DNA of 37,756 bases from a virus, in IMG/VR virus record IMGVR_UViG_3300009695_000390, positions 1 to 37,756 of that record; one strand, 5' to 3'. The position numbers and the translations under genes were made by a program. Under the pieces are notes generated by a model. It saw only the letters and a list, made by a program, of their open reading frames with translations. It was not told where the DNA came from and made no database searches. This document shows positions 6,203 through 21,959 of the stretch, piece by piece (the first letter of the stretch is position 1; every line of letters starts with the position of its first letter).

Positions 6203-6835
6203 TCATAAACTGACAATGATCTTTTCATAAAGCTCCCGAACCGCATCAACCCCAATCAATCCCCCATTTATCGCTTTACGTGCACCCTGAATGTCAGCTT
6301 TATCAGCAAAGACATTCAGGTTTTTCTTCTTCCAGTAATATCCGGCTGATTTCAAAGCCCATTCTGGCATAAGCAGAAGATCTGGATCCGAAATAATCTT
6401 TCCATCCATGTGAAAAGCCTGATCAAGCTCTGAATAATTCGCCCGGCCAGTCGTCATTATGATTCCACGGCCCCGGTATTTCCAGCCATCACCTGAACCG
6501 GCCGGTCCGTTTCCCATTCTGTCAGCATAGGTCACATTTGCAATCATTTCCGGCCTGCGAGCGATATTCAAAGCCAAAGCGTTCGGAAGCTTTTTAATTG
6601 CATTTGGCGATCGGGAAAACCGAGATGGCCATGTATTTGCAAGCCCCTGAGCGGTATAGTTTAGATTCTCAACAAAACGGGTAAAGCCTTGGCATTCGTG
6701 GCCACACTGAGCGAGAAACATTGCAATCCGCTGCGGTGAATTCAATCCCGCATAAACAGAAACTTCCTCCCAGAATGGAAGAAAGTTCAGGATCTTGCTT
6801 TTTGGGAAGAGCTTTGTTAAAAGAGAAGGGTTCAC
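6203..6835 (-). CDS. Endolysin, glycoside hydrolase family 19
   Basis: The 210-aa protein is a GH19 (chitinase-type) lysozyme that cuts the glycan strands of peptidoglycan to release progeny. The catalytic pair is visible: Glu47 in the QCGHECQGF segment as general acid and Glu56 in the diagnostic VENLNY motif. Further family blocks are DGWKYRGRGIIMTTGRANY in the middle and TKAINGG-like ARKAINGGLIG near residue 190. There is no signal peptide, so it should depend on the adjacent holin to reach the wall. The start is GTG at 6835, overlapping the holin stop (GTGA), and no in-frame ATG would keep the catalytic N-terminus. It is the last gene of the late operon. Confidence 0.93.
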   Translation of the reverse strand: MNPSLLTKLFPKSKILNFLPFWEEVSVYAGLNSPQRIAMFLAQCGHECQGFTRFVENLNYTAQGLANTWPSRFSRSPNAIKKLPNALALNIARRPEMIANVTYADRMGNGPAGSGDGWKYRGRGIIMTTGRANYSELDQAFHMDGKIISDPDLLLMPEWALKSAGYYWKKKNLNVFADKADIQGARKAINGGLIGVDAVRELYEKIIVSL

Positions 6836-7413
6836 TTTGGCTCGTTGGTGTCTGGATCTTTATCAAAACTCAGAAGATCTTTATAGTCTCCTGAATTCCT
6901 GAACTTTCTGAAAGGTGCGCTAAACCATGCCGGCAATAAGTTTGGAAGTATCTGATCAATCAGATCGCACGACTTTATAAAATAGTAGGTGAACATCACA
7001 CCGTACCCGGCAAAGATGAAATACAAAGCAATTCCAGGTACCGGATTTGCACCGGCAACAGCCTGAGTAGCGATTTTGAACACCACGGCGATGATTATAG
7101 AAGCGACATATCCAAGCATCACAACCGAAACCATTACGACAAACTGCTCAACTGTTTTTTTAATAAATATTTCGGCTTTCGCTTCCCCGGTCTTATAGTG
7201 CTTTACAAGACCTAAAAAAGTCATCAAGGCGAATCCAATTGCCGTTGCTGCAAGCAGATCAACCGTTAAATCCTGTCGGTAATTGAATACCTGAATAAAT
7301 CCAACAGTCGAAGAAGAAATAAGCAGGAAGGCCGGGTTTGTTACCATCCCCTTTATTGTTATGCCGATTGACGTGAGCATGTCGTTGAGATTAAAATGTT
7401 CAAAGATTTTCAT
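6832..7413 (-). CDS. Holin-like membrane protein (193 aa)
   Basis: The product has about four hydrophobic segments: around residues 27-45, 52-70, 88-112 and 125-148, separated by short charged loops, with a polar C-terminal tail (DKDPDTNEPK). Size, topology and position directly before the endolysin, with overlapping start and stop, match the Bacteroidota phage-holin family. Such proteins collect in the inner membrane and open it at a set time so that the endolysin can reach peptidoglycan. The identification rests on topology and context rather than on a signature motif. Confidence 0.75.
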   Translation of the reverse strand: MKIFEHFNLNDMLTSIGITIKGMVTNPAFLLISSSTVGFIQVFNYRQDLTVDLLAATAIGFALMTFLGLVKHYKTGEAKAEIFIKKTVEQFVVMVSVVMLGYVASIIIAVVFKIATQAVAGANPVPGIALYFIFAGYGVMFTYYFIKSCDLIDQILPNLLPAWFSAPFRKFRNSGDYKDLLSFDKDPDTNEPK

Positions 7414-7450: not shown

Positions 7451-7903
7451 TCAGTGGGTTATAGTTCTGACAAATAATAGTGTTCCTGTTACTACTATCG
7501 GCACTAATGATCCTGTTTTAAATCCTTTCCAAAATGATTTACGGTTTTGCTGCACTTCTGTTTTAACCTGTTCGCGCAATCCGTCGACCTGCAGGTTGTG
7601 CAACTTTTCTTTGTAGTCCCATTCGATTCTTGCGGCAAGGTATCTTTCATTTTGAAGTTTGATTATGGCTCTCTGATTCTCAAAAGCTGGCCGGATTTCC
7701 TGTAAAACAATGTTACTGTCTTCCAGTGCCCGGGTGTAGCTCTCTTGCAAGTATTCGGTCGATAATGGCTTTTTTGTTACTTGCGCGAAGCTCTTCGAGC
7801 TTGGCAGAATCAAGCAAAACATTATAAACAGCACTATCGAAAGCAGGCTGCAAATCCGTGCGCTCGTTGAGCTGCGTTTCGATAATGACTTTCTTGGCTT
7901 CAT
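7451..7903 (-). CDS. Secreted coiled-coil protein, spanin candidate (150 aa)
   Basis: The N-terminus is basic (MKPRKSLSKRSS), followed by a hydrophobic core at about residues 17-33 and a possible signal peptidase I site (SFA before Gln41). A helical, charged stretch covers about residues 50-125, and a second hydrophobic segment lies at about residues 132-146. This predicts a periplasmic coiled coil held by one or two membrane segments. There is no convincing lipobox. The first 63 codons are read in another phase inside the preceding gene, a nested layout typical of phage spanin pairs (Rz/Rz1). The later half has no competing frame. A lysis role is inferred from topology, overlap and position before the holin. 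Confidence 0.55.
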   Translation of the reverse strand: MKPRKSLSKRSSTSARICSLLSIVLFIMFCLILPSSKSFAQVTKKPLSTEYLQESYTRALEDSNIVLQEIRPAFENQRAIIKLQNERYLAARIEWDYKEKLHNLQVDGLREQVKTEVQQNRKSFWKGFKTGSLVPIVVTGTLLFVRTITH

Positions 7904-8036
7904 AGAATTTTGAGCTGTCGATTTTTATGACCTCGGTTTCTGTTGTGTGGTTATCGTAATTTCTAGGCATCCACCAGAAGAAATAGCACAATGCAGCAAT
8001 CGCGATGACAGTAAATATTTTGTCAAGGTTCTTCAT
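7713..8036 (-). CDS. Membrane-anchored coiled-coil protein, i-spanin candidate (107 aa)
   Basis: The product has a short basic N-terminus, one transmembrane segment at about residues 8-24 (including CYFFWWMP) and a polar helical remainder up to residue 107. This is the topology of an inner-membrane spanin subunit. The ATG overlaps the stop of the upstream secreted esterase gene (ATGA), so its translation is well placed. Its last 64 codons overlap the next gene in another phase. I see no sequence family. In the Rz/Rz1 model this would be the inner-membrane partner and the nested gene the second partner. Neither has been shown, and one of the two frames could be spurious. Confidence 0.55.
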   Translation of the reverse strand: MKNLDKIFTVIAIAALCYFFWWMPRNYDNHTTETEVIKIDSSKFYEAKKVIIETQLNERTDLQPAFDSAVYNVLLDSAKLEELRASNKKAIIDRILARELHPGTGRQ

Positions 8037-10756
8037 AGGCCTATCTGGAATTTCAGCGGATTATCAACCCTGGCCGACCAGAACAAAGGAGCGTGATCGC
8101 CGCCTTGAATAACCAAGCTTCTGAAATTAGAATCAGAATATCCTTTTGCCTTTAAAATAGCATCGACCTCATTTTGTCTGCCTGTGTAGCTATCATCCAG
8201 GCCGACCGTGCCGTGATCAAAATACAATTTGTGCGATGTTGGATCTGGAAGATTTGCAGTTAAATAGTCCTTGAACTTTGGGAACCAATCAGTATTGTGA
8301 TACCCCAAACTACCCATCCAGTGCGTTGACATGGAAATGTTTCCTTTGAAAATGTCCGGGTACTTGCATAGCGCATAAATCCCGATCAGACCACCCATCG
8401 AACTTCCCCCTATGAAAGTGTTTTGTTGGTCAGATAATGTGCTGTATTCCGAGTCGATCTTTGGTTTTAACTCGGTAACAAGGAACTTTAAAAACTCATC
8501 GCCTAACGGGTTTCCACCCGTTTCTTTCACGAATATATCTTTGGTTGATTGATCAAGGCTTACCCATGTAGCAGAAGGTAAATACTCCCTGAATCGGTAT
8601 TGATCGGAGTTTATTCCGACAATAATCGTTTCCTTTATTTGTCCTGAATTAATCAGATTTTGTGCAGTAGCATTCAGATTCCACTTTCCCGGTCCATCGT
8701 TAAATAAGTCTTGTCCGTCTGTCCAGTAAACTACCGGATATTTTTTTGCTGTTGTGTATGCATTTGGAAGGAAAATAGAAATCCCCTTTTGCTGAATATT
8801 ACCACCTGGCATATCAAAGTAAGTAGGGGGATTAGGATTCAAAGCCGCAACATCTGGATTTACACCACCCCAGAAATCAGGGGTTTCGATTTGATTGATG
8901 TACGCGTCCGGGTGATCATTGAAAGTCTGGTCATACAGCCATTCATTATTAAACACATTGTGAGGACTTTTTGTAATGTCGACAATGACCGTATTTTGGA
9001 CCGTAACAGGTGGCGGGTTGAAGGGTTTGCCAGTATACTGCCTTAATCTTGATGCCCCCTCGTTTATTTTTTGCACTCCGTTATCTAGGTACTTCATAGC
9101 TATGTGAGTCTTCCAGCCCCCGGCTTCCCATATCTTGGTTGCGAGTTCAACAAACTGGCTTGTCGTTACCTCCCCAGTTCCCCATCCCTCTTGTTGTCCT
9201 GCATCTTGTGAGTCAATTTCTGCACTGGCTGGTTTATTTGGGAAAGTCCCTCTGAATACTTTAATCCCCTTGATCTTCCTTTCGTTGTCATAAGCATAGG
9301 AACCGTCACTATGGTACAATTCATCCGCATTCTTGGCTACGTAAGAGAAGTAGGCAATCAGTTCGTTTCCGTTTTGATGCGTACCAACAGAGGGCATAAA
9401 AAAGCAAACATTAATCTTTGAACTACCAGCCCTTACACCTTCTGCGAAGTTGTCAAAGTACTTACGCATTGTGTAAGTGCAGAACCGCATGTACTCTTTT
9501 CCGATCTCATTGGTCGCGTCCAGGTATCCGTTTTCGCTATAAAAATCAGGTCTACGGTAGGCGGTTAACTTTCTTTTTTCAACCCACTCTTTAAACTTAG
9601 CCATGAATGGATCCGACAAATCAGACGCTTCCACAATCTTATAACCCGGATCAGTTTCTGTTTTTTCCCTGATTACAGTTTCAAAATTAGGCATCACAAA
9701 CTCTTCCCCCCGGCCTGATCCAAGCCCAATGTATCCAGCCTTTTCGTAAGTGCTTAATACTTCGGATAATACCTGTACTGCCTTTTTTATTCGGGCATTG
9801 GTTTGGTCGTCTACGTAAGTAGCAATAGTTGAATTGTAAGGGATGTACTCTCTGATATCAACAGGGTAAAACGTTCCCCCTCTGTTTCCCCTCATAAAAA
9901 GATCATTGGAGATAAACCCATCGCCGTATTTCCGCCAGGGAAGAAAACAAATATGCAAAATAAGCCCTCTATCTCTATGCCATTGGATCATGCGTTTAAC
10001 CCCTTCAATCTCGTAGTTCCCGGGTGTTTTTTCGAACTCATACCAAGGGAAAGCGACCCTTACACTGGTAATAGTATACTTCCCGTTTACCTTGAATTTC
10101 TCTACATAATCCGAATCTTTAAATCCTACCGTGTTTTCGTTCCACTTGTTATTTCGCCAATAAGTAGCCTCAAATCCTTCACCAGTTAGGTTTAAAACAA
10201 GCTCGTAGATTTTATCCGCCGATGGAACGACAGGCGAAATAATGGGGGGTGTGACTTCCCCGGTACTCCCAATGGTAAAGTTAATCGGAACAGGATCTTT
10301 CTTATTCTTGCAATTCCCGCCTTGAATCCAGAAACGGTAGGTTCCGTTCGCTATCGTGTTGAACTTCGCAATAGGGTTGTTATTTGATGGCGTAACAAGC
10401 GTTCTTTGAATCGCCGCGGTATCTGTCAGACTTGTGTACTTCGCGCTTATCAGTGTCACATTCGACCCATCAAATAGGAATCTAATCTGAGTTGGCGAAA
10501 TTGATAGTAGCTTTTCTAGGTTTGGACCTCCGTCGCAGTTGGGTAAGATGGCGGAAGGTGGGTTAATAACAGGAGGAACTACAACGGGCGGTTTTACGAT
10601 CAGCTTTTCCAGATTGTCAATTCTTGAATTAACTGCATCCAATTGCGCCTTTGTAGCGGTACCCGAAAGATCAACCTCGAAAGTTCCAGTTGCTTTTTGA
10701 GCCTGGACAAATAATGGAAGTATGGCTAGTAGCCAAATTTTGATAAAGTTTTTCAT
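8033..10756 (-). CDS. Secreted two-domain enzyme: TIM-barrel hydrolase-like plus esterase
   Basis: The 907-aa product begins with a signal peptide (cleavage likely after QA near residue 19), then a short coiled coil and a proline-rich linker (about 53-68). A fibronectin-like domain follows (about 70-165), then another proline linker. Residues about 180-590 resemble a GH42-like TIM barrel (VRVAFPWYEFEKTPGNYEIEG; GRGEEF as a possible acid-residue site). Residues about 610-907 form an esterase-D-type alpha/beta hydrolase with Gly-Gly-Ser-Ser786-Met-Gly-Gly, Asp854/855 and His888 as the likely triad. It probably deacylates and perhaps cleaves extracellular polysaccharide. It sits between the capsid gene and the lysis genes, behind a hairpin. 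A signal peptide is unusual for a virion protein; it may be a cargo gene. Confidence 0.8.
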   Translation of the reverse strand: MKNFIKIWLLAILPLFVQAQKATGTFEVDLSGTATKAQLDAVNSRIDNLEKLIVKPPVVVPPVINPPSAILPNCDGGPNLEKLLSISPTQIRFLFDGSNVTLISAKYTSLTDTAAIQRTLVTPSNNNPIAKFNTIANGTYRFWIQGGNCKNKKDPVPINFTIGSTGEVTPPIISPVVPSADKIYELVLNLTGEGFEATYWRNNKWNENTVGFKDSDYVEKFKVNGKYTITSVRVAFPWYEFEKTPGNYEIEGVKRMIQWHRDRGLILHICFLPWRKYGDGFISNDLFMRGNRGGTFYPVDIREYIPYNSTIATYVDDQTNARIKKAVQVLSEVLSTYEKAGYIGLGSGRGEEFVMPNFETVIREKTETDPGYKIVEASDLSDPFMAKFKEWVEKRKLTAYRRPDFYSENGYLDATNEIGKEYMRFCTYTMRKYFDNFAEGVRAGSSKINVCFFMPSVGTHQNGNELIAYFSYVAKNADELYHSDGSYAYDNERKIKGIKVFRGTFPNKPASAEIDSQDAGQQEGWGTGEVTTSQFVELATKIWEAGGWKTHIAMKYLDNGVQKINEGASRLRQYTGKPFNPPPVTVQNTVIVDITKSPHNVFNNEWLYDQTFNDHPDAYINQIETPDFWGGVNPDVAALNPNPPTYFDMPGGNIQQKGISIFLPNAYTTAKKYPVVYWTDGQDLFNDGPGKWNLNATAQNLINSGQIKETIIVGINSDQYRFREYLPSATWVSLDQSTKDIFVKETGGNPLGDEFLKFLVTELKPKIDSEYSTLSDQQNTFIGGSSMGGLIGIYALCKYPDIFKGNISMSTHWMGSLGYHNTDWFPKFKDYLTANLPDPTSHKLYFDHGTVGLDDSYTGRQNEVDAILKAKGYSDSNFRSLVIQGGDHAPLFWSARVDNPLKFQIGL

Positions 10757-10771
10757 GTAGTGTGTGAAAGC

Positions 10772-10799
10772 AACTGACCGACATTGAAGCCGGTCAGTT
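10772..10799 (-). terminator. Strong hairpin between capsid and esterase genes
   Basis: A perfect 9-bp stem (AACTGACCG with CGGTCAGTT) encloses a 10-base loop and lies 13 bases downstream of the major capsid stop. On the minus strand the stem is preceded by an A-rich run and followed by TTGCTTTC, only a weak U-tract. On the plus strand ATTTTTG follows, but no rightward gene exists here. It probably acts as a partial terminator or 3'-end stabiliser for the abundant capsid transcript. Confidence 0.65.
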
Positions 10800-10812
10800 A
10801 TTTTTGAATGGA

Positions 10813-12030
10813 TTAAGAAGCGGTCAACTTCGCGGCAAAGATGCCGGAAACACCGTACAGGACACTACTATTATCAGATGTGAACCATCCAAGAGGTCTA
10901 GCGTGGAAACCTCCCGCTAAACCAAGTGTTGCCGTGGTTTTAGCGAAGTCATTATCATCCCGCTTATTGGTCACCCTCAAATCAACGTCACGAATGAAAG
11001 AATGAGCAACATTTTGAAGGATTGCTTCATCTTCCGGAAGGTTCATGAACATAATTTTCGCTTTCGCATCAACTGTGTCATCGCTGTTTGTTGGATCGTT
11101 GAACTTAGGGAAGTCACCATAGCAGAAAGTTTCTGCGCAAGCTGCTCCTGAATCAACCAAAAGAATCCGACCATCACCATAAACCGAATCAATAAGTTCG
11201 TCATAGTAGAAGTCAAATGGCGCTTTGTTAAACATTGCAGGCCAGTTAAATCCAGCATCGTTGATAGCTAAAATCCCTTCGCGGCTAAATGCACGGCTTG
11301 CTAGTGTTCCACCAATTACGATCAATCTGCCGGTGATCTTGTTAGCAATTTTAGTTTCGCGAATGAAATCATAAAACTCAGCCTTTAAAGATCTGTCCGC
11401 ATTGAAAGTTGCAACATCAACCAAAGGAGCTGCCGCGGTGGGTGTAGTTGCTGCCGGGAAAGCCGCATTCTTACCGATCCGAGCGATCAAAGAAGTAAGA
11501 ATGTACGTTTCGAAGGGTTTTGCAATCCCGCCATCAAAATCCTGCATGATCTGAATGCCAAGGCGATCAAGCAATACACGATACTTTGGATCGATCTGCT
11601 CAGACATTGCACCTGAAACAATCTTCTGCATGTACTCAATCGCTTTTGGCTCGTAAAATTCGCGAGCCAGTTGGCGATTCACCTTGATTTCTTTGTAGAA
11701 ATCGTAAACGACCTCCGTTGTTAATGGATCAGAAAAATCTTCTCCATTAAGATCGCGTGTCCGCTCGTCATAGCCAGTAACAACACGAGCTGGGAAAGTT
11801 TTAACTGTCACCTTCGGTACTGGTATTTCGCGTCCGGGAGTATCCCCCCAACCTACGACTGTTGAGTCGCTAGGGCCATAAGGACTGATAGCACTTCTCA
11901 ATTCAGCAACGGCGGGAGAAAGCATTGCTTGCAAAGCTCCGTAACGTCCGAATTTAAGGCCATTGTTTGTGGTATGCATTAAGGCCGCTTGTACGGTCCG
12001 GGCAATACCAAGGTTTACATTATTTGGCAT
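10813..12030 (-). CDS. Major capsid protein (candidate)
   Basis: The 405-aa product follows the coiled-coil scaffold gene with a 22-bp gap and is followed by a strong hairpin. That is the usual place for the major capsid protein after portal, minor head and scaffold. It is mostly soluble, with an alpha/beta mixture, an N-terminal helical arm (about 1-55) and an extended segment (REIPVPKVTVKTFPAR) that could be an E-loop. It has no signal peptide or enzyme motif. An Ala/Pro/Thr-rich loop lies near residues 190-205. I do not see a diagnostic HK97 sequence motif, so the call rests on order, size and neighbours. An alternative would be another abundant virion shell protein. Confidence 0.7.
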   Translation of the reverse strand: MPNNVNLGIARTVQAALMHTTNNGLKFGRYGALQAMLSPAVAELRSAISPYGPSDSTVVGWGDTPGREIPVPKVTVKTFPARVVTGYDERTRDLNGEDFSDPLTTEVVYDFYKEIKVNRQLAREFYEPKAIEYMQKIVSGAMSEQIDPKYRVLLDRLGIQIMQDFDGGIAKPFETYILTSLIARIGKNAAFPAATTPTAAAPLVDVATFNADRSLKAEFYDFIRETKIANKITGRLIVIGGTLASRAFSREGILAINDAGFNWPAMFNKAPFDFYYDELIDSVYGDGRILLVDSGAACAETFCYGDFPKFNDPTNSDDTVDAKAKIMFMNLPEDEAILQNVAHSFIRDVDLRVTNKRDDNDFAKTTATLGLAGGFHARPLGWFTSDNSSVLYGVSGIFAAKLTAS

Positions 12031-13307: not shown

Positions 13308-13874
13308 TTACTCTTTAATCGTATAAATCCGCAAACTCGAACTCGTTGCCGTGTAAGCGATCGCGGGAATTGGTTTATACTTTCCGGTTTTTGGTGATCT
13401 GGTTGCTTTAAAAATCACTGTCTTTCCAAACGGTATAGAAACCGTATTGCCCCCGACCACTATCGAGCTGGCTACACTTGTATGATCATTCGAGATCTCG
13501 ACGTAACTGTAAGTGCTCGCGGCAAGTGTGCCGGTCGTTGTACTATTCAGAATCGTTTGATCAGTAACAGCATCATTACCGGTCACAAATGCACCGATTA
13601 CAAGCGGGACCGTTGCGCCATACGAAGTAGAATCAGCTTTGCGTACCTGAGATGGTAACAAAGTCAGATCAAAACCAGAAAACTTAAATCCAATTTTGGT
13701 TCCCCTAGTTGCAACTCTGAATTCAGATGCCGGTGAAATCTTCCAAAGACCTCCATTTGCTGAATCGACGCGGATCTGATCAGGAGCGGTGTAATAGATC
13801 CGGTAATTCTGAGCACTCGCGGAAAACCCTATCAGAAGGGCAAAAGACAATAGTAAAAAACATAACTTTTTCAT
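13308..13874 (-). CDS. Secreted beta-rich protein inside the head operon (188 aa)
   Basis: The ATG at 13874 opens a textbook Bacteroidota signal peptide (MKKLCFLLLSFALLIGFSASAQ is the segment, here described rather than needed in full; cleavage before Gln). Two in-frame ATGs lie 6 and 9 bases upstream; the Met-Lys-Lys start is preferred because it gives the normal n-region. The mature part (about 165 aa) is rich in Ser, Thr, Val and Gly, with beta-strand periodicity and no catalytic motif. It lies between the MuF-like minor head gene and the scaffold gene, 13 bp after the former. A secreted product is not expected in a head-assembly cluster. It may be a cargo gene or a surface protein acting on the host. 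The function is unknown. Confidence 0.6.
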   Translation of the reverse strand: MKKLCFLLLSFALLIGFSASAQNYRIYYTAPDQIRVDSANGGLWKISPASEFRVATRGTKIGFKFSGFDLTLLPSQVRKADSTSYGATVPLVIGAFVTGNDAVTDQTILNSTTTGTLAASTYSYVEISNDHTSVASSIVVGGNTVSIPFGKTVIFKATRSPKTGKYKPIPAIAYTATSSSLRIYTIKE

Positions 13875-13887
13875 TTGCATCATTGGT

Positions 13888-14709
13888 TTAATTGTTATTA
13901 GTAAATCGATTGTAAAGCTGTTCGGTGATTGGGCGAAGAACATCTATGCAGTTGTATCCACCAACTAGCCAGAAGATACTTTCCTTGGTTGTACCTGGAA
14001 TTTTACCCTGCCAGTCTTCATCTGCCCAACTCTCAATTTCTTTTTTTGTGAAGGCTTTACCCTTCCTTTTTATGCACCATGCCCGGCTGTGAACGACCGC
14101 TACACCGTCAAAATAAAAGTGTTCTAAATCAAGAGCGGTACCTATCGAATTGGAATAGTTCCGATGGAACATCCAAAGAGATTGTTTTGCCTGGTTAAAC
14201 ACGTAATTGGCTGGCAAGTCATCTGTCTGAATAATCTGCTTGACTTGTTTTCTCAAATCAGTTAAGGTTTGCCCTGACATTACCGCATTTTCAAGAGCCT
14301 GGCTAATTGGTTCAATGAATGCTGTTTCGGGTATCACGTCAATGAGCTGCTTTCTAACCCTTTCAAGAGCTTCACCGCCTGCCTGATGAAAGAATGCTGA
14401 ATACTTGCTCATTCCGTATGGCTCGTAATAGCTTTCGATCTGGATTGTCACTTCTTTCATTCCAGTTAGCAAGCCGTCAACAGTCACATCATATCCGGCT
14501 TTTGAAAGCTCAGTCCGAAGAAGTAAGCGGTACCTGGTTACAGTCTTCCAGTCTGTCATTCTGCTTTCGGGAGTCATTTCAAGCTCATCCATGATTTCAA
14601 GGATCGAATCCAAAAAAGCCTTAGCGACAACCTGAATTCCTTTCATGAAGGTGGCCAATAAACCTTCCTGCTTCATTTCTGCCTGTTCAAGGAATTCCAG
14701 CTCTTCCAT
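13888..14709 (-). CDS. MuF-like minor head protein
   Basis: The 273-aa product is helical in its first 190 residues and ends in a compact module resembling the C-terminus of MuF/SPP1 gp7-type minor head proteins. That module has the order SRAWCIKRKGKAFTKKEIESW, then a Pro/Gly segment, then GGYNCIDVLRP, with Trp-Cys and Asn-Cys as the conserved cysteine sites (about residues 205-265). These proteins bind the portal and enter the procapsid, sometimes to be ejected with DNA. The ATG overlaps the portal stop (TAATG), so the two are translationally coupled, as is typical for portal and minor head genes. Confidence 0.75.
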   Translation of the reverse strand: MEELEFLEQAEMKQEGLLATFMKGIQVVAKAFLDSILEIMDELEMTPESRMTDWKTVTRYRLLLRTELSKAGYDVTVDGLLTGMKEVTIQIESYYEPYGMSKYSAFFHQAGGEALERVRKQLIDVIPETAFIEPISQALENAVMSGQTLTDLRKQVKQIIQTDDLPANYVFNQAKQSLWMFHRNYSNSIGTALDLEHFYFDGVAVVHSRAWCIKRKGKAFTKKEIESWADEDWQGKIPGTTKESIFWLVGGYNCIDVLRPITEQLYNRFTNNN

Positions 14710-18875: not shown

Positions 18876-21800
18876 TTATAATCCATAAGTTGCCGCAACC
18901 CATCCATAAACTTGCGCCCCCGCACTTCTTAAAGCAAAGTATCCGGGGTGATTGTAATCGTCATTGGCGATTTGCAAGGTGTTATTAATTGCCCCTTCGT
19001 CGTTTTGTTCAATAGTGAAGCTGTGGCTATTAGGCTGCATAGCAAACCATGTCGGTATTAAAAATATTTTATTAGTGACTTGACTCGCTAAACTTCCAAA
19101 CCGTGTTTGCAACTCTTTATACAAATCCCATTTATTGTTATGATCTGATTGCGAAAACAGGCCAATATAATTAGGGTGCCTTTCTGGAAACATCGGGCCC
19201 GGAATATCGGTCAAAAGAACTCCCACCTTACAGGAGGTTAACTGCGTGGTGATTTCCGTAGCCAGCTCAATGATATCGTTTGCTATATCGACCGGATTCG
19301 TAACATGTAGTCTATCATTCTCTCCGGTTGTAATCAGGTAATGCGTAGGGGTACAGACTTGGTGATTCGCTAAGGATACCACCTTCGTTCCTGCTGTGCT
19401 ACCTAAAACCAAAGGCGTTACTCCATCATCTGCAAGGGTTTTCCACTCTGCTTTGTATTTGGCGAAATTAAAGCGATTGGTTCCTGATTTTGAATAATCA
19501 AAATACCTATTCTGAACAGTGGATAAGGAGCCAGCCGCAACACCGTCAATCCACGCTTGAACGAGGGCTATTTGTGGTGCGCTACCAGTCCACGCGCCAA
19601 GGCTATTTGAAATCTGTACTTCGGATATTAGCGTGTTGTATGAATTTGCCGATATAACCGGAGCCACTACGCCGTAAATCGCTTTGGAAATGAGTGTATT
19701 ATCACTTGACGAACCATTATACCCGCGTCCAAGTGTCGTGGATAATCCTAGTAAATCCCATCCACCGAGCGGGAAAACCCACATCCTACAAGGGTGTCTA
19801 AGGAATGTGCTAGTAGCAAAGCCGCCTTGACCATCTGCAAATTGCTTAATTGTAAGAGCGTTTCCGTTATACGTGAGTGTCCCATCGCCAAAATTTGACC
19901 TTCCCATACACAAATAGCTAAACCCGCTACCTCCCGCATCAATTCGGTTTTTCTCCGCAATCTCTTTCGACATACCGTAAATTGTACTCGCACCAATACC
20001 CGTATACACTCCGTTTCTCGGTCTTGGGGTCAATATAGAATCGCCAAGGCATCCGACTTTTGGGAATTGCGCAGCCAATAAACTTATATTAGCAGAAAGG
20101 CGGTTTATGTTGATATTTTTCGTCAGATACTTGCCTCCTCCAAGGGTAATAGCTAAGGTATCCTGTATTACCGTTCCTGCATTTGTGGCGTTTTTAGCAG
20201 TAATTACGAAGTTCTTGCCACCGTTTAGCCATATATCTATCTTCTCCCTTATAAAGTGTTGCAAATACAATAATGTAGGCTCTTTTCTTGCAAAAGCATT
20301 CCCATCTGGTAGGTAAATATTCGAAGGAAAGAGATAAAGAAAATCCGTTAATCCTAATGAGGCCACATTTTCCAATGCGGTAGCGCGAATAGCCAATGCG
20401 TCCGTAAGCCCGGTATCAGCAACATTTTTTTCTCCTATTTTTGCACCAGCTAATAGATACTTTGCAAGTATATTGAGACTGTTTATTTTATCATTAACTG
20501 TTTCTGTAACATAAGATTCGTAAGCGGTTGCTGCGGTTCCAAGTTGAATTTGAACAGTATCCTTATTAGCTATCGAACCTACGCTGCTGTAAATTTGCAC
20601 CGTTATTTTCGTGCAAAGTGCGGGTGTTGTGAAAGCGTAATTATTCGTAGGGCTACCTATAAATGAAATAGTAGCACCCGCTGCATTTAAAAACTTCAAA
20701 CCTCTTGGAGTTCCTAAATTGTGTCCCGATAAAAAGTAAGCCGTGTTTGGCAGAACTGGCATATCTTTTATGCGACCAAAATTAGCTACTGAAAAAATAA
20801 CGCCATCTGAACCAATTCCTTCGCCGTCTTGCAGCATCGTTGCCTTATCGAACTTATTTGTCCCAACAAAAACAAGATTGTTTCCAACAGCTTTCCCAGC
20901 CAATGATGAAGTATTTGCGACTATATTCGATTCTATTGTTTCGATTCGTGTTAGCGTCAACACGTTCTCGTAAAAATGAATGATTCCGGGGTTTGAGTCC
21001 GCAGCCGGTAGCGCTGGAACAGTTGTGTAAGTGGTTCCAGGTAAACTGGTAAGCCAAGCTCGATAATATAAACCCGAACCGTTGTTCCACTCTCCGGTGA
21101 GATCTGCCTTGTTTGTGTCTGAGTAGACAGGATTCAGTGCTGAATCACAAGTTATGTCTACAAATATTTTATCTCCATTTGCAGTTGTAACAGAGTTTGT
21201 AAGATTGATTTTGTATTCGTAGTTGTGGTAGTCCACAATTGAGTCGGCATCGTCATTTGCCGCGAATTCGGCAAATGGAACGGTGATATCTAAGAGTATC
21301 GTATGAACTGCTGATCTTTGATGTACAACTTGCACCCTTACATCACTGGAAATTGTACCTACGCTACTTCTTTTGAAAACAAAAATCCCCACTTTGTCTA
21401 GCTTCTTTACTCCTTTTGGGAAAAACCAAAACTTTTGTTCCTTTTGTCCTGCGATTTGGTACGTTGTATATGCGTAACTAGGAACTTGTTGAATTCGAGG
21501 TGTTGCAACAATTGTAGGAACCAACTTCGAATTTTGATTCTCCAAAACCGTTATTTTTGGCTCAGCTGTGATAATCTTTTGCAAGGCCTGGTCGTTCGGG
21601 GGTATATAGTCCCACTTGGTTCCGCGACTAATTAGCCTTCCACCAACAGCCATCACGGTTGATGTTCCAGTAATAGACTGCGTTCCGGTAACTACAACAT
21701 CGAAATATTTACCATTGTCCTGATTTGCCGTTGACGTTGGTGTGAATGTTGTACCAGCTTCTTTAAGCGTTGCAACGTTTGTAGTTGCATTGTAGTTACC

Positions 21801-21959
21801 GAGACTATCAGTAAGCGAAAATGTTTCAAATATCTCATCAATAGCATCCGCGCTTGAAACCAAGACTTCTTGCAATAGCCCTGCCGAAATAAGTTTACTA
21901 TTGTTAGCAGGAAGTTTTGCAGTTATTTTCTGACGAAATACGCCTGTATTATTTGCCAT
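18876..21959 (-). CDS. Tail fibre/spike with SGNH (GDSL) hydrolase domain
   Basis: The 1027-aa product has an N-terminal virion-attachment region (MANNTGVFRQKITAKLPANN), a beta-rich middle with Ser/Thr/Asn-rich repeats, and a C-terminal SGNH hydrolase at about residues 630-1027. The catalytic blocks are visible: Gly639-Asp640-Ser641 (block I), Gly879-Glu-Asn881-Asp882 (block III, the Asn) and Asp1001-x2-His1004 (block V). Block II Gly is in the loop region after 641. Such domains remove acetyl groups from surface polysaccharide and help the phage reach its receptor. It follows two large tail-tip proteins and precedes Ig-like proteins, consistent with a receptor-binding protein. Confidence 0.85.
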   Translation of the reverse strand: MANNTGVFRQKITAKLPANNSKLISAGLLQEVLVSSADAIDEIFETFSLTDSLGNYNATTNVATLKEAGTTFTPTSTANQDNGKYFDVVVTGTQSITGTSTVMAVGGRLISRGTKWDYIPPNDQALQKIITAEPKITVLENQNSKLVPTIVATPRIQQVPSYAYTTYQIAGQKEQKFWFFPKGVKKLDKVGIFVFKRSSVGTISSDVRVQVVHQRSAVHTILLDITVPFAEFAANDDADSIVDYHNYEYKINLTNSVTTANGDKIFVDITCDSALNPVYSDTNKADLTGEWNNGSGLYYRAWLTSLPGTTYTTVPALPAADSNPGIIHFYENVLTLTRIETIESNIVANTSSLAGKAVGNNLVFVGTNKFDKATMLQDGEGIGSDGVIFSVANFGRIKDMPVLPNTAYFLSGHNLGTPRGLKFLNAAGATISFIGSPTNNYAFTTPALCTKITVQIYSSVGSIANKDTVQIQLGTAATAYESYVTETVNDKINSLNILAKYLLAGAKIGEKNVADTGLTDALAIRATALENVASLGLTDFLYLFPSNIYLPDGNAFARKEPTLLYLQHFIREKIDIWLNGGKNFVITAKNATNAGTVIQDTLAITLGGGKYLTKNININRLSANISLLAAQFPKVGCLGDSILTPRPRNGVYTGIGASTIYGMSKEIAEKNRIDAGGSGFSYLCMGRSNFGDGTLTYNGNALTIKQFADGQGGFATSTFLRHPCRMWVFPLGGWDLLGLSTTLGRGYNGSSSDNTLISKAIYGVVAPVISANSYNTLISEVQISNSLGAWTGSAPQIALVQAWIDGVAAGSLSTVQNRYFDYSKSGTNRFNFAKYKAEWKTLADDGVTPLVLGSTAGTKVVSLANHQVCTPTHYLITTGENDRLHVTNPVDIANDIIELATEITTQLTSCKVGVLLTDIPGPMFPERHPNYIGLFSQSDHNNKWDLYKELQTRFGSLASQVTNKIFLIPTWFAMQPNSHSFTIEQNDEGAINNTLQIANDDYNHPGYFALRSAGAQVYGWVAATYGL

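Follow-up and report, generated by a model that had tools for sequence, protein, structure and literature searches.

The 907-amino-acid (aa) open reading frame (ORF) at 8033-10756 of an IMG/VR virus record, all 37,756 bases of which (the window) were analyzed, encodes a predicted signal peptide, a glycosidase-type barrel, and an esterase domain. This gene is one occupant of a recurring slot in Spirosomaceae prophages, usually beside the lysis genes, and not the isolated cargo gene that the first-pass annotation had proposed. We favor, with some reserve, a model in which its product is a late, Sec-exported surface-polysaccharide depolymerase/esterase that would stay in the periplasm until lysis sets it free.

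The ORF is real, with the length and coordinates first given for it, but ORF calling placed it on the minus strand; a plus-strand reading was discarded, since stops occur throughout. Read along the minus strand, terminase and tail genes come first, followed by portal/MuF-like genes, scaffold, and capsid; then come the enzyme gene, a pair of overlapping spanin-like genes, a putative holin, and a GH19-type endolysin. This puts the enzyme directly between capsid and lysis genes, as had been claimed. The capsid, portal, holin, and spanin labels were given from gene order and the character of the sequences, and the endolysin is the only gene flanking the enzyme that gave a strong family match. The features of this region are as follows.

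10813..12030, minus strand: major capsid protein gene, assigned from position and the preceding scaffold and MuF-like genes; no family match
10771..10800, minus strand: hairpin between the capsid stop and the enzyme start
8033..10756, minus strand: gene for the 907-aa exported-type bipartite hydrolase, the subject of this report
7713..8036, minus strand: putative spanin-like gene with an N-terminal transmembrane segment, its start overlapping the enzyme stop; no family match
7451..7903, minus strand: putative second spanin-like gene, overlapping the gene at 7713..8036; no family match
6832..7413, minus strand: membrane protein, putative holin; no family match
6203..6835, minus strand: endolysin, GH19 type (PHROG 181, E = 6e-67)

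Only 57 nt separate the capsid stop from the enzyme start, and the end of the enzyme gene overlaps the start of the next gene by 4 nt (ATGA); we therefore consider the gene part of the late operon. A promoter scan at the enzyme gene stayed near chance level and found no clear separate promoter. A strong hairpin is present in the capsid-enzyme gap of this phage and of every capsid relative described below, with unrelated sequences (the segments fold at -25 to -29 kcal/mol), and is probably a partial terminator that would set the enzyme below the capsid level. Between the MuF-like and scaffold genes lies a gene for a second signal-peptide protein (13308-13943, minus strand; true start probably near residue 22-24). 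Its identity is 66-70% in each of the four capsid relatives, and no NCBIfam match was found for it.

The enzyme itself is built from the following parts.

10697..10756, minus strand: signal peptide, residues 1-20 (MKNFIKIWLLAILPLFVQAQ), from a rule-based check
10262..10696, minus strand: N-terminal module, residues 21-165, from relatedness to four relatives at the same site
8921..10210, minus strand: clan GH-A TIM barrel, residues 183-612, from an AlphaFold2 model, fold search, and invariant columns
9701-9703 and 9218-9220, minus strand: codons of the barrel catalytic candidates Glu352 and Glu513, respectively
8855..8878, minus strand: junction motif DFWGGVNP, residues 627-634, closing the barrel module
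8036..8839, minus strand: alpha/beta-hydrolase esterase domain (PF00756), residues 640-907
8399-8401, 8195-8197, and 8093-8095, minus strand: codons of the esterase triad Ser786, Asp854, and His888, respectively

The signal peptide and the proline linkers of the first-pass annotation both held up. Signal peptides were called by a simple rule, not by SignalP, and the one here has a basic n-region, a hydrophobic core (maximum KD10 of 2.63), and a VQA↓Q cleavage site; the proline-rich linkers lie at about residues 55-72 and 167-178. The N-terminal module comprises a short tail-fiber-like segment (DLSGTATKAQLDAV; YYTKxQxDS in relatives), a proline linker, and a small domain containing C74 and C149, which may be Ig-like and which occurs as many tandem repeats in one host protein.

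No Pfam match for the barrel was obtained with the 907-aa sequence alone, and single-sequence searches were silent. An AlphaFold2 model built from a 33-sequence alignment (pLDDT 85, pTM 0.90) bore out the predicted GH42-like barrel: a Foldseek search against the PDB returned GH42 galactosidases as the best matches (E = 1e-10), followed by beta-amylases and GH164, with many GH-A barrels matched, and a profile search with the barrel placed beta-galactosidases of the GH42/GH35 type first (E = 7e-5). A viral fold library yielded phage tail proteins and GH5-labeled proteins with moderate scores. Candidate catalytic acids, whose absence would have spoken against a glycosidase, are in place: DSSP on the model puts Glu352 just after the end of beta4 and Glu513 within beta7, and both are invariant in all 33 sequences, as are Trp238, Glu242, Asp279, Asp515, and Asp518. 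The GH42 beta-galactosidases (PDB 4uoq and 1kwg) share the fold and the two catalytic Glu residues at beta4/beta7, but identity is about 11%, the barrel alone is matched, and the GH42 profile PF02449 did not match the 907-aa protein and matched only 2 of 33 family members (best E = 4e-4). The barrel is thus of clan GH-A and GH42-like, but not GH42.

The C-terminal domain matched PF00756 at E = 4e-22 (79.6 bits against a cutoff of 22), and its nearest PDB sequence was 3gff (E = 9e-10). Alignment with the esterase of a Dyadobacter prophage protein (L060; 39% identical) retained Ser786, in a GSSMG motif, and His888 of the triad first proposed, and settled the choice between Asp854 and Asp855: residue 855 is Ala in L060, so the acid is Asp854. 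The recurrence of barrel plus esterase in L060 also means that the pairing, first taken for a nonstandard arrangement, is not unique, and fusions of glycoside hydrolases to CE1-type esterases are known in bacteria. XynZ (1jjf) and the NF041944 xylanase/feruloyl esterases, which are cellular GH10 enzymes, likewise join a glycosidase and an esterase on one secreted chain; however, the 907-aa protein has a different barrel family and scores far below the NF041944 cutoff.

Whole-protein searches of INPHARED phages, IMG/VR, and GTDB contigs found no relatives, which were reached only via capsid, terminase, N-terminal module, and barrel alignments. Capsid and terminase searches led to prophages of Dyadobacter sp. 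CY347, D. alkalitolerans, and D. endophyticus and to one metagenome phage; a capsid search of 48 Dyadobacter genomes returned three already known prophages and nothing further. The host of the phage is Dyadobacter, and a search of the literature available to us found nothing on Dyadobacter prophages. Identity to these relatives is 76-77% for the capsid and 79-87% for the putative holin, while the enzyme gene aligns at 28-32% over the N-terminal module, and further only in D. endophyticus; the module as such is 28-36% identical. In D. endophyticus, the module is followed by the barrel and a beta-lactamase-fold hydrolase (PF00144), so that serine hydrolases of two unrelated folds are found behind the same barrel, which fits the expectation for a partner that de-acylates. 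CY347 and D. alkalitolerans carry an unrelated type B part, whose structure model (L005 type) reached a pLDDT of only 33, and the metagenome phage carries a third kind, type C; no PDB or Pfam matches were found for either type, and we do not assign them as glycosidases. All four relatives thus keep a related N-terminal module with other enzyme parts behind it.

Besides the enzyme gene, a tail-fiber-like gene is among the most divergent late genes, alignable at its N terminus only, where covered. Judged from these alignments, the two show the pattern of genes that would track variable surface glycans. A 1,027-aa tail protein (18876-21959, minus strand) has GDSL/ND/HP-like motifs by eye and no Pfam match was found; its C-terminal part varies too, since only the first 120 aa or so align where relatives are covered. 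The CY347 prophage carries an acyltransferase gene (PF01757; L006:16139-17251) close to its lysis end, possibly for surface-glycan acylation and so opposite in sense to the esterase of the 907-aa protein.

The contigs with the closest relatives are long and belong to Dyadobacter chromosomes, so these relatives are probably prophages. This, together with enzyme parts that vary as strongly as receptor-related genes do, would suit lysogenic conversion or superinfection exclusion, in which an enzyme made by the lysogen removes or de-acylates the phage receptor. We regard this as improbable, since the gene belongs to the late operon, has a hairpin but no clear promoter of its own in front of it, overlaps the lysis-side gene, and lacks the type IX secretion (T9SS) tail for reaching the cell surface.

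The barrel was found in 34 of 223 Spirosomaceae genomes; a phylum-wide sample gave one weak match in 396. By these sequence searches, the family occurs in Spirosomaceae only, and it has no Pfam family of its own. Copies outside the chromosomal group described below were classed as phage-borne by their neighboring genes, the exception being L069/L070, with chromosomal-looking surroundings. In the phage copies, capsid or tail-type genes precede the barrel gene and lysis-type genes mostly follow it; where the barrel is exported, the next genes at most of these loci are putative spanin, holin, or endolysin genes. The DFWGGVNP motif is common to barrels with different C-terminal hydrolases or none. 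At L009 (4346-7690) and L067 (4434-7661), fiber-like proteins with signal peptides are encoded just upstream of an exported barrel, the former with a weak GDSL lipase match. At L053 (4131-6713), L054 (4736-7315), and L061 (3705-6281), exported type B proteins have the exported barrel and another, small exported protein as neighbors, making three consecutive signal-peptide genes ahead of the lysis-type genes. One genome (G097; L065 and L076) has six barrel copies at different places.

The main rival to a lysis-released enzyme is a virion component, a tail or head-decorating depolymerase that attaches after lysis or whose signal peptide goes unused. Among phage relatives, signal peptides are present except in two tail-module proteins: L060 (812 aa), which combines barrel and esterase and has a terminase gene in its vicinity, and L058 (864 aa), a barrel protein 2.5 kb after a tape-measure gene. 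In the barrel tree, both nest among exported proteins, with the barrel of the 907-aa protein on a long branch, and at L065, an exported barrel lies one gene past the tape measure. The barrel therefore alternates between tail-module and exported proteins, with close links between its virion and exported forms. This counts against a nonvirion reading, as does the resemblance of the N-terminal YYTK-like motif to tail-fiber segments. We nevertheless consider a virion role unlikely, since all four capsid relatives and most of the distant ones have a signal peptide despite strong divergence, and in the capsid relatives the slot adjoins the lysis genes, well away from those for the tail.

Dyadobacter also encodes a chromosomal barrel protein of about 760 aa (L072/L075), which shares the barrel family and signal peptide of the 907-aa protein, but lies outside prophages, lacks the esterase, and has a T9SS sorting tail. 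This tail (Por_Secre_tail) was found in 5 of 5 tested chromosomal copies and was absent from the 907-aa protein and all tested phage copies. Release at lysis is therefore likelier than secretion before lysis; of the exported two-domain polysaccharide hydrolase first proposed, the architecture and likely target stand. The host cousin shows signs of being a secreted surface enzyme, and virus-encoded glycoside hydrolases with demonstrated activity exist (PMC6786970), as would fit an auxiliary metabolic gene that digests environmental polysaccharide to feed the host, a role proposed for soil-virus glycoside hydrolases. This is very improbable given the late operon position, the exchange with tail-module proteins, and the variation between closely related phages, which would be unexpected.

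In the lysis-release model that we favor, the protein would be expressed late, exported through Sec to the periplasm, and cut at VQA↓Q; without a T9SS tail, it would not pass the outer membrane before the neighboring lysis genes burst the cell. Its barrel would cleave a glycosidic bond, most likely by the retaining mechanism of clan GH-A, in which Glu352 would be the acid/base and Glu513 the nucleophile, and the Ser786-Asp854-His888 esterase would strip acyl groups that stand in the way of the glycosidase. Overall, slime or receptor would be cleared from debris and neighbors and the progeny freed. We propose that a two-step attack, de-acylation before glycosidic cleavage, accounts for the recurrence of a serine hydrolase beside the barrel, and that surface-glycan diversity explains the swapping of enzyme parts. 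The closest structural relatives are exo-acting galactosidases, and a depolymerase needs endo action, which counts against the depolymerase reading.

Soluble phage depolymerases usually have a beta-helix fold. The 907-aa protein instead has a Sec signal peptide and a GH42-like clan GH-A barrel joined to an alpha/beta esterase, and its gene occupies a slot whose enzyme parts are exchangeable. Phage tailspikes that remove acetyl groups are also known. Its likeness to soluble polysaccharide depolymerases of the Adams and Park type, an accepted phage class freed at lysis (PMC5380687), would be that of a free late enzyme acting on surface polysaccharide, and signal-peptide endolysins are a precedent for the use of Sec by late phage enzymes (PMC6116005). 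Tentatively, and as a rather doubtful extension, Spirosomaceae phages may keep an exported enzyme slot, usually before the lysis genes, with a conserved signal peptide and N-terminal module and enzyme parts swapped in from the virion tail-enzyme pool; the exported copy would be a receptor-destroying enzyme freed with the progeny, in a role like that of influenza neuraminidase and matched to virion specificity.

In this family, the movement of a phage enzyme domain between proteins of virion type and exported ones can be put to the test, and clan GH-A gains a family for which Pfam has no separate entry. So variable a locus could show which Dyadobacter surface glycans phages contest. If release at lysis is true, an exported polysaccharide-cutting step would be added to the exit of phages from gram-negative cells.
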